From Myotis daubentonii (taxonomy: Eukaryota; Chordata; Mammalia; Chiroptera; Vespertilionidae): a DNA stretch of 64,000 nt. Of the stretch, positions 26,611 through 30,386 are shown piece after piece. Every line of letters starts with the position of its first letter. Position 1 is the first letter of the stretch. The translations under genes and the position numbers were made by a program. The stretch covers positions 88,983,063-89,047,062 of the forward strand of contig NC_081841.1 of assembly GCF_963259705.1 (NCBI RefSeq). Reading direction: 5' to 3'. The notes below the pieces were generated by a model, which was not told the DNA's origin, did not search any database, and saw only the letters and a program-made list of their open reading frames with translations.

Positions 26611-26910
26611 TTATTTGATTAAAAATAAGGATGTTTCATTTTATTTTTATATCTTTTTAATCCTTGATCTAGAGTGAGCATATGACAGTCTGAGGAGTTT
26701 TGTATTTCCTGAGCTGAGAAGCTAAGCGGGTTTTGCCACATATGATGTAAACCAGGAGTTTTCTGTAAAAGTCCAGGTAGTAAGTACTCTGGGCTTTGCC
26801 CTCCATGTGGTTTCTGTTACAACTACTCAATTTTACCATCATAGCACAAAAACAGCCATAGGTCATCCTATATAGTAAGAGGGGAATATGCTAATTATCT
26901 GTTACGCCGG

Positions 26911-27140
26911 TAAGTCACAACCAGATCAGCCAGGCTGCGTCCCTGCCCTCTGCTCAGGCAGCTGCAAAGCTCACGAGGGGCAGGACGCACTGTCCAGGCA
27001 CCCGGTGTGGACCGTCGGCGGGTCCCTGGATGGAGGGATGGACGGTGGAGGCTTTCCGGAGGGAGGTGCTCCTGCTTTGCGGCAGCAGTGCCCAGGCTGC
27101 GCTGGCCTTGGCCACCCTCACTGGGCTGGGCATCCCAGGT
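26911..27140 (+). other. GC-rich exon-like segment inside the Helitron
   Basis: After the Helitron 5' end, a GC-rich stretch has an open frame from ATG at 27030 (MEGWTVEAFRREVLLLCGSS and on) running to ATCCCAG|GTAGGG at about 27138, a good 5' splice site. Upstream lacks an obvious acceptor, so it could be a first exon with promoter. The protein is not recognised. It may have been captured with PBX2 or in a separate event. Confidence 0.35.
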
Positions 27141-27572
27141 AGGGAATGGGAGCCCGATGGCGGTGGGGAGGCCGGGGGAAGGGGGGGGGGGGGCAGCAAA
27201 CACCTGGCTGGGGATGAGCCCTGGGCTGGGGGTTAACGCCCTCCACCCAAGGGAAGCTTTAAGAGGGAAGGAAGGCTCCTCCCTCTTGCTCACCCCCCCC
27301 CCCCCACACACACACACCCACCCCTGCCTGGGCATCCTCTCTCTCTGGCTCCATTTTCTCCCCTGCCAGGGCCAGGGTTCTTGTTGGGGGCCCAGTCTGT
27401 ACCCCAGGTCTCCCTTAAGAGTCAGGGTGAACCCTTGGGGGAGCCAGGAGATTGGCGGGGGTCGGGGCAGAGGGACCAGCAGCCTAGCAAGTCTGGGGGG
27501 AAGTAACCAGGTGGGGGAGGGGTGGAATAGGCAGGGGCCTCAGGGGCACCTCCCCCCCCCCACACACACACT

Positions 27573-29462
27573 ATGGATGAGCGGCTGCTGAGGTCGCCCC
27601 CTCCAGGTGGGGGCCGGGGGGATCTGGGGCTGGTGGGTGGGGAGCCTGGGGGCCCTGGCGAGCCTCCTGGTGTGGATGGGGGGGAGGGAGCAGGCGTTGT
27701 CCCAGGAGGCCGAGGGAAGCATGACATTGGGGCCATTCTGCAGCAGATAATGACCATCAGGGACCAGAGCCTGGACGAGGCCCAGGCCAAGAAACACGCC
27801 CTAAACTGCCACCGAATGAAGCCAGCTCTCTTCAGTGGCCTGTGTGAAATCAAGGAGAAGACCGGCCTCGGCACCCGAAGCTCCAGGAGGAGGAGCCGGT
27901 GGACCCCCAGCTTATGCGCTTGGACAACATGCTTCTGGCTAAGGTGTGGCTGGGCCTCAGAAAGGTGGGGGCAGCTTCTGGGGGCGGCGTGTCCCCTGAC
28001 AACTCCATGGAACACTCGCCCAGATCCGCTATATCTGCCACTCAGAGCTGGAGAAGTATGAGCAGGCATGTAACAAGTCCAGGAACCACGTCATGAATCT
28101 GCTGAGGGAGCAGAGCCGCACGAGGCCCGTGGCACCCAAGGAGACAGGGCGGGTGGGAGCATCATACACCGCAAGTTCAGGCCACCCCGATGCAGCTCGG
28201 GCAGAACACCTGCGAGGCCGTCATGACCCTGCGCTCCCGGTTCCTGGATGCCAGATGGCAACGCCGGAACTTCAGCAAACAGGCCACCGAGGTCCTACAT
28301 GAGTATTTCTATTCCCACCTGAGCAACCCGTATCCCAGTGAGGAGGCTAAGGAGCAGCTCGCCAAGAAGCGTGCATCACCGTCTCTCAGGGCTCCAACTG
28401 GTTTGGCAACAAGCGGATTCGCTATAAGAAAAATAGCGGAAAGTTTCAAGAGGAGGCAAACATCTATGCTGTCAAGACCGCCGTGTCTGTCACGGGGGGT
28501 GGGGGGTGGGGGGGTGGGCACAGCCGCACCAGCTCCCCGACACCCCCTTCCTCCGACACCCCCTTCCTCCGCAGGCTCTGGCGGCTCTTTCAATCTTTCA
28601 GGGTCTGGAGACATGTTTCTGGAGATGCCCTGCTTCCCAGGTGGAATCACTCTAACACTCAATGGGCCCAGCGGCTACGGAGATAACCTCGTAGAGGCCA
28701 GATGGACAGCCCTCGGGAAATGAGGGCAAACGGCGCTGAAAGGAGGCTGTGACTCCGTCCTCAATGACGTCCCCAACAGAAGGACCAGGGAGCGCTCATT
28801 CTGACACTTCCCACTGCTCTCACCCATCAGGCCAAAGGGTGGGGGCTCAGAGGTGACTGGATGAGAGGACAAAGGCATCCAGAGGACAAGCCCCAGACAC
28901 AGGAGAAGCACAAGATGGAGAAGGGCAAATGGGGTCGCCCTACACTAGCTGACTCAGTTCTGGGGTTGCTGACTACATGGCAAGGCGAAGGGGGTCCCCT
29001 AAGGGGAAGGTGGGGTCTGCCTCCTCTTTTTTCCCTTCTTTTCAATCTTTTTCTTTCCCCATTTCTTACACAGAAACACACCCAGAAGTCTATCTTTCAG
29101 ATCCTCTCTCTCTCTCTCATAGACACATACACAACTATTATGTTTCTTTCTCTCATATATAGATACACAACTATTGTTTCTCTATAGACACATATACATT
29201 GTCTCTCTCTCAGACACACATATGACTATTCTCTCTCTCTCTCTCTGGTTTCACCCATTCTCTCTCCCCCACCCCTTATCTGCTCTGGGATCTGTGGAGA
29301 TGCCAGCCTTGCCCTATCTACCAGAGATGCCAAAAATGGGGACACACTCCCTGTGCCTCCCACCCCTCCCACCCTTCCCACCCCTCCCACTCCAGACGGC
29401 TTTATTATCTCATATGCAGCTCATCTCAAACCAATAGAATTGCTCAGTGAAAAAAAAAAAAA
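27573..29462 (+). pseudogene. PBX2 processed pseudogene
   Basis: The ATG at 27573 opens a frame MDERLLRSPPPGGGRGDLGL typical of PBX2, a TALE homeodomain transcription factor that partners HOX proteins. The PBC domain (ILQQIMTIRDQSLDEAQAKK) follows. The homeodomain lies at about 28250-28440, with the TALE signature NPYPSEEAKEQLAKK and recognition helix NWFGNKRIRYKKN. A C-terminal serine-rich part (HSRTSSPTPPSS) ends near 28806. No introns remain from the multi-exon parent. At least five frameshifts are visible (about 27885, 28018, 28160, 28183, 28368), the last inside the homeodomain, and an alanine-rich run and a few residues near 28018 are lost. A long 3' UTR runs to a 13-14 base A tract at 29449-29462. 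The 5' limit is unclear, possibly near 27275. It lies inside a Helitron in the same orientation and is non-functional as a protein gene. Confidence 0.9.
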
Positions 29463-30105
29463 GAGGAAGGAGGGAGGGAAAAACTTTATAAAGGAGTCAG
29501 TAGACAGCAGAGTTAAAGAAGGAGAGAGGATGTATGAGTGAACTGTAGGAGCTATAATGAAAATCAAGTATAATTGTGTACTGGGGACAGATTTTAAAAG
29601 TAAGAGTCAGAGAAGAAAACAGATTAATGATAGTGAATAATTTAGGCAGGTAGATAGATATTAAAACAGTGGAAGTAAGTAGAGAAGAATGTATGGGAAA
29701 GGTAGGATGAGAGAGAAAGAGGGAGGAATGAAAAGTTTTAAAGGGGAGCCAGTAGAGCTTGAAAGGAGAATGGGAAGAAGGAAGAAATGGGGGAGGGAGC
29801 AAAGCAGGTCTGAGGGAGGAAGTGAACAAAAAATTAAGGTGGGAAGGAAGGAAAAGGGGAGGGAGGGCAGGGGTAAAGATAAAGGAAAGAAGGAATGTGG
29901 GAAGGGAGGGAGGGTAGGAGAAAGACCGAAAGAAGGATGATGAAACAGAAGTAGGAAATAAGGAGGGGAAAAAAGTTTATAAATGATGAGTCAGTAGGAA
30001 AAAGTGTTACATAAAGGAGAGAGAAAAATGGTGTGAGAGGGAGAAACCAATAAGGGAGTCAAATACAATTGTGTGTGAAGAGGCTAAAATTAAAAAAGAA
30101 AGTTA
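29463..30105. repeat. Purine-rich degenerate tandem repeat, about 240 bp period
   Basis: Almost entirely A and G on the plus strand. A motif of GGGAAAAACTTTATAAAGGA type followed by GTCAGTAG-like sequence recurs at about 29476, 29730 and 29965, and an AATTGTGT motif recurs at about 29571 and 30067. No gene; the frames are low complexity. Confidence 0.6.
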
Positions 30106-30109
30106 ATAG

Positions 30110-30245
30110 GGGTGACCAGGCCAGCAGGGGAGGGCAGTTATGGGTGTCCAGGCCAGCAGGGAAGGGCAGTTAGGGGTGACCAGGCCAGCAGGGGAAGGCA
30201 GTTAGGGAAATAGGCAGGCAGGTAGAATGGTTAGGGCAGGCAGGC
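30110..30245 (+). repeat. Helitron minisatellite units
   Basis: About three imperfect units of GTGACCAGGCCAGCAGGGGA type followed by GGGCAGTTA, then GGCAGGCAGGTAG-like units. Such arrays are typical of bat Helitron interiors and mark the return to Helitron sequence after the purine block. Confidence 0.75.
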
Positions 30246-30386
30246 AGGTGAGTGGTTAGGAGCCAGAGGTCCTGGATTGCGAGAAGGATGTCCAACTGCC
30301 TACCTGAGGACTCCTGGATTGGAGAGGGTGCACGTCGGGCTGAGGGACCGCCCCCCATTCATGAATTTTGTGCACTGGGACTCTAG

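Follow-up and report, generated by a model that had tools for sequence, protein, structure and literature searches.

The locus described here raises the question of how a host mRNA came to lie between the two ends of a rolling-circle transposon. The window, a stretch of 64,000 nucleotides from Myotis daubentonii, contains a PBX2 copy enclosed by Helitron sequence. A first-pass annotation had offered two orders of events, Helitron capture of a retrocopy or a retrocopy landing in a Helitron, and had predicted PBX2-bearing Helitrons at other loci if the composite had moved. All locus counts given below refer to a single searched genome (2.13 Gb, 121 contigs).

The Helitron and its PBX2 cargo

In the window sequence, positions 26866–30386 form a single Helitron on the plus strand that encloses an intronless PBX2 copy, arranged in the order 5'UTR, broken coding sequence, 3'UTR and poly(A). 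The plus-strand 5' terminus (TCCTATATAGTAAGAGGGGAATATGCTAATTATC at 26866) begins with TC and is of the TCCTATATA type, which we take to be the Helibat 5' motif, and the 3' end (GTGCACTGGGACTCTAG, 30370–30386, plus strand) terminates in CTAG. Both ends are thus present in one orientation, as had been noted, but they cannot be called canonical, since the hairpin before the 3' end has decayed (folding z +1.4); hairpins at the 3' end of locus L035 and at another Helitron end in the window gave z values of −4.0 and −4.2. Because this hairpin has decayed in the window copy, its assignment to the Helitrons rests on the whole 3' tail and the 5' body that it has in common with its relatives. With a hairpin that no longer folds, the window copy may never have served as a donor.

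Allowing up to three mismatches, the 3' pattern was found seven times in the window (0.12 expected from shuffles), and the 15-base 5' pattern 19 times, four of them exact (12.4 expected; as many in 7 of 100 shuffles), which does not clearly exceed the chance level. Many copies with these two ends are dispersed through the genome. The first ~105 bases of the element matched many loci over most of their length at 73–89% identity (40 of 159 candidates scored), and a query of 29480–30386 gave 6145 first-look candidates, with long matches in all 40 that were scored.

The 5' part of the host Helitron (26866–27260, plus strand) consists of the TCCTATATA terminus followed by a body, and the same order is found in relatives with and without PBX2. 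An internal deletion follows position ~26974, where the aligned relatives retain the missing sequence. The stretch 27017–27166 of the body may be an exon acquired by capture. After a CTTT, the left copy of a target-site duplication occupies 27261–27275 (AAGAGGGAAGGAAGG; AAGGAGGGAAGGAGGG in most other long copies), and the PBX2 segment begins directly behind it, all on the plus strand: the 5'UTR (27276–27572), whose first ~60 bases correspond to the 5' end of the parent gene, the coding sequence (27573–28815, its end placed by eye) with a homeodomain at ~28247–28430, and the 3'UTR (28816–29449), which is 81% identical to the last parent exon over 28725–29451. The retrocopy ends in a poly(A) tract (29450–29462), as expected of a processed pseudogene, and this A-rich junction was also present in the seven other copies aligned there. 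The right copy of the target stretch (29461–29474, AAGAGGAAGGAGGG) overlaps the final A's and is followed by the 3' part of the Helitron (29475–30386) with its terminal CTAG.

The earlier identification of the cargo as an intronless PBX2 copy with homeodomain, 3'UTR and poly(A) was borne out by domain matches and by the parent gene. A PBC domain was found by Pfam in the window reading frames (E 2.7e-15), together with weaker pieces of a homeobox, and the best PDB matches were the homeodomains of PBX1 and extradenticle. The parent PBX2 gene lies in the same genome on contig C7 at ~96.88 Mb. A 340-residue part of the product of its exons 2–9 was 97–99% identical to mammalian entries, including PBX2-named matches from rat (98%) and tarsier (97%). 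All seven parent introns between exons 2 and 9, the range covered by the comparison, are missing from the window copy, as in processed pseudogenes. In the parent, a run of N appears to cover exon 1, and the sequence just upstream of this run is matched by the start of the retrocopy.

The composite is directly adjoined by a Helitron-like unit (30387–31113, plus strand), whose 5' end abuts the composite's CTAG and whose own CTAG ends at 31113, followed by T. The middle of this unit (~30620–30970) is unlike its ends, and may be cargo or reflect two broken elements. Short Helitron-like elements with both ends were also seen elsewhere in the window, at 19978–20348 (minus strand, 371 bp), 44609–44849 (minus, 241 bp) and 48577–49034 (plus, 458 bp), the last starting directly after the CTA of another apparent Helitron end.

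Insertion of the retrocopy into the Helitron

Same-family Helitrons that carry no PBX2 reveal the order of events. The 5' body and the 3' tail are both present at fourteen such loci. In all 12 that were aligned, the sequence runs from CTTT through AAGAAGGGAAGGAGGG into AGGGAAGAACTTTATAAAGG uninterrupted, with small differences and with short deletions near the insertion point in two of them (L004 and L006); the remaining two loci, L016 and L022, are also continuous through this point. The target stretch, single in the PBX2-less Helitrons, is doubled around PBX2 in all five long copies (the window, L030, L031, L032 and L033). In each of these PBX2 starts right after the target stretch, and its A-rich right end is followed by a repeat of that stretch.

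The duplication, a further mark of processed pseudogenes, comprises ~14–16 bp after the CTTT at TT|AAGA, its length being uncertain because the stretch consists largely of purines and grades into the poly(A). LINE-1 endonuclease has a TT|AAAA-like site consensus, which the insertion site TT|AAGA resembles. Since the duplicated target is itself Helitron sequence and the PBX2-less relatives are continuous there, the retrocopy was inserted into the Helitron, and of the two orders offered earlier it is the landing of a retrocopy in a Helitron that fits. Taken as sequence evidence, the doubled target shows entry by retroposition rather than pick-up at the edge of the element, with enzymes that would have been of the LINE-1 type. 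Ends belonging to separate Helitrons were not seen; within this genome, both ends belong to one family and occur together in the PBX2-less relatives.

Spread, remodelling and decay of the composite

The prediction of PBX2-bearing Helitrons elsewhere was confirmed by four further long copies with the same boundaries and seven more loci in which PBX2 pieces and Helitron sequence occur together. With the coding query (27573–29020), all 18 candidates were scored and comprised the window, 11 PBX2 loci, the parent, an old processed copy and weak matches. All 17 candidates of the 3'UTR query (29000–29457) were the window, the same 11 loci, the parent and three matches of 38–49 bases, and all nine of the 5'UTR query were the window, L030–L033 and four short matches of 31–46 bases. 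PBX2 is joined to Helitron sequence at all 11 other loci. The long copies sharing both junctions of the window are L030 (C4, 97.20 Mb), L031 (C4, 118.37 Mb), L032 (C1, 82.90 Mb) and L033 (C23, 17.80 Mb). Both Helitron ends are present in L033; in the sequence examined, the 3' end was not found for L030, the 5' end for L032 and either end for L031. Further junctions are shared among six of the seven remaining loci. These common junctions support movement of the composite after insertion of the retrocopy, with about a dozen places in the genome now carrying PBX2-Helitron sequence.

Weak matches of the coding query on contigs C12 and C19 may represent other PBX genes. The older processed PBX2 copy (C3:107111685–107112546, L047 and L050) is ~74% identical, and the Helitron-query search detected no Helitron piece on the same strand there.

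The insertion sites are those of a Helitron, at A|T without target duplication, as judged from the base before the 5' end, which is A in seven copies (the window, L030, L033, L034, L036, L037 and L039), and from an empty site for L034. L035 and L038 start directly after the CTAG of another Helitron. The base after the composite's CTAG is T in all nine copies that were read (the window, L032–L038 and L040). Another Helitron-like unit begins with this T in the window and L034, and L033, L037 and perhaps L032 have a TA run that passes into similar Helitron-like sequence, so that the T's of these copies are weak evidence for A|T insertion. By eye, no Helitron-like neighbour follows the CTAG of L036, L038 or L040. 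For the paralogous empty site of L034, the sequences bordering the PBX2 element together with its 424-base neighbour were joined; they aligned to a related repeat beside L036 with identity in 335 of 439 columns, and in that repeat the A|T at the joint is uninterrupted.

No mutual match at E 1e-5 was found among the flanks of the five long copies (up to 700 bases per side; for L030–L033 the 3' flanks comprised 74–310 bases each, partly filter-masked TA repeats). Flank matches were detected for L035–L038, L034–L036 (two), L031–L040, L037–L040, and for the window 5' flank with both L037 and L040; those of the window are more than 350 bases away from the junction and have the appearance of repeats. 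The upstream flanks of L035 and L038 are 76% identical over 705 columns. Each of the two is preceded by the CTAG of a similar Helitron; they may be tandem units mobilised jointly, or products of a duplication. The Helitron-like units or TA runs directly 3' of the window, L033, L034 and L037 copies look as if Helitron 5' ends or TA-rich starts were favoured as sites. On C1 at 126–131 Mb, Helitron tails and 5' ends of a second type cluster at similar identity, as if locally duplicated.

This second type of 5' end appears in rebuilt copies of the composite. In L034–L038, PBX2 begins at window position 28207 and is fused to a different Helitron 5' end, the letters at the join being identical in four of the five, with two bases different in L036. 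The second 5' end comes from another Helitron family, since at L063 and L064 it is followed by another body, common to both (82% over 918 columns). The overlap at the 28207 join is ~2 bp as judged by eye, which would fit template switching as the means by which the second 5' end was joined. L039 also has a 5' end of the second type, with PBX2 from ~28687. A second rearrangement, from 29346 to ~30308 with the same few added bases, is common to L036, L037 and L040, and L034 has a similar join with some bases missing. L040 has a 3' end, and no 5' end was found in the sequence examined.

The tree of the copies is star-like, with the parent placed inside at support 11, and it does not prove a single origin of the copies. 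Supports above 80 were obtained for two pairs only, L035 with L037 (93) and L036 with L040 (82). The pairing of L037, which has the 29346–30308 join, with L035, which does not, conflicts with a simple nested order, and may point to a second event or to sequence exchange among copies.

Compared with parent exons 2–9, the window coding sequence has three premature stops and 12 frameshifting indels. Every copy that retains a long coding part, ten in total (the window and nine of nine others), has frameshifting indels. L039 and L040 retain short coding pieces without frameshifts, and that of L040 has one stop. Differences from the parent are in excess at codon position 3, and selection on the copies was considered as an explanation and set aside. 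Changes specific to single copies are distributed almost evenly over the codon positions (78, 91 and 97 in ~2650 base cells each) and near the rate in the 3'UTR (192 of 6257), so that the position-3 excess is attributed to constraint on the parent. The copies themselves give no sign of selection, suggesting that the PBX2 cargo is a passive passenger.

K80 distances over 28207–29346 were 0.075–0.105 among the five long copies and 0.073–0.095 to the parent. At an assumed rate of about 2.5e-9 substitutions per site per year, this divergence would place the events at roughly 15–20 million years. Such an age falls within the span of Helibat activity given in PMC4778049, from 30–36 to 1.8–6 million years.

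Proposed history and comparison with known Helitrons

Retroposition into a Helitron followed by rolling-circle spread of the composite is, with high confidence, the best explanation of these data. A PBX2 mRNA would have been reverse-transcribed and inserted, presumably by LINE-1-type machinery, at TT|AAGA of a non-autonomous Helibat-like Helitron, duplicating ~14–16 bp of Helitron sequence and leaving both Helitron ends in place. With these ends retained, the composite could be copied by a rolling-circle transposase, probably that of an autonomous element, into A|T sites that were often beside other Helitrons; five long copies, the window's among them, would remain from this phase. One composite appears to have later lost its 5' half and acquired the 5' end of another family at 28207, giving a chimera that spread too, and some copies would have acquired the 29346 to ~30308 join, the sequence of these later steps being tentative. 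The DNA itself shows the insertion into the Helitron, the common junctions, the separate loci, the unmatched flanks of the long copies and the decay of the gene.

A Helitron could instead have taken up a retrocopy lying beside it, by 3' read-through or template switching. Helitrons are described as bypassing their own 3' end and carrying off flanking DNA (PMC4778049), and in the later chimeras part of PBX2 is indeed fused to the 5' end of a Helitron. Capture is nevertheless very unlikely as the origin of the composite: read-through would leave PBX2 beyond the old 3' end, whereas here PBX2 is flanked by a 5' body and a 3' tail that are contiguous in the relatives, with a doubled target and an A-rich tail on the right. 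Independent PBX2 retrocopies, each landing in a different Helitron, would agree with the star-like divergence of copies and parent, but they would all have had to enter at the same base and duplicate the same target in five long copies, which makes this the least credible of the explanations. It is also opposed by 31 of 1065 columns at which 80% or more of the Helitron copies share a base that differs from the parent's; when these columns were polarised by the old processed copy, three were placed on the copies' side and 16 on the parent's side, with 12 undecided.

A single PBX2-Helitron spread by segmental duplication rather than transposition would be in keeping with the cluster of Helitron copies on C1 at 126–131 Mb, which looks local, and with the similar upstream flanks of L035 and L038, the one pair for which duplication may hold. 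As a general explanation it is highly improbable in view of the unmatched flanks of the five long copies and of the uninterrupted site in the repeat related to the L034 flanks.

Gene cargo in Helitrons is generally attributed to capture by the transposon; here the doubled target shows retroposition first and Helitron multiplication second. Moreover, a cargo-bearing Helitron that changed its 5' end and spread again gives models of Helitron family formation a natural example. A wider proposal is that retroposition into a Helitron may be an efficient two-step route from a whole mRNA to a transposon family, with cargo that is repeatedly rebuilt (new 5' end, internal deletion) and some copies that may still supply PBX2-derived transcripts or 3'UTR sites where they now lie; we regard it as doubtful.

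Retroposed mRNAs are reportedly among the Helitron cargo described by Thomas et al. in 2014 for Myotis lucifugus, and none of those cases is known to us to involve a swapped 5' end followed by a further round of spread. Within the literature collection searched, no paper combined Helitron and PBX2. Helitrons with gene cargo are a known kind of element, and the novelty of the present case is the readable order of events. Among sequenced mammals, Helitrons are said to come from vesper bats, in which gene-bearing Helitrons are known (PMC4778049). The PBX2 composite resembles the non-autonomous Helibats (HelibatN subfamilies) in its TCCTATATA-type 5' end, CTAG 3' end, the hairpin of its relatives, A|T insertion and high copy number; unlike them, it encloses a processed mRNA that is nearly complete. 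Section 12 of PMC4778049 likewise describes insertion immediately next to other Helitrons, as seen for the composite. The same source describes HelibatN3 with a fragment of NUBPL, which like the PBX2 composite is host gene sequence amplified by a bat Helitron. The NUBPL sequence, however, is a genomic fragment with a promoter and splice donor that drive transcripts (PMC4778049), whereas the PBX2 cargo is a retroposed processed mRNA.
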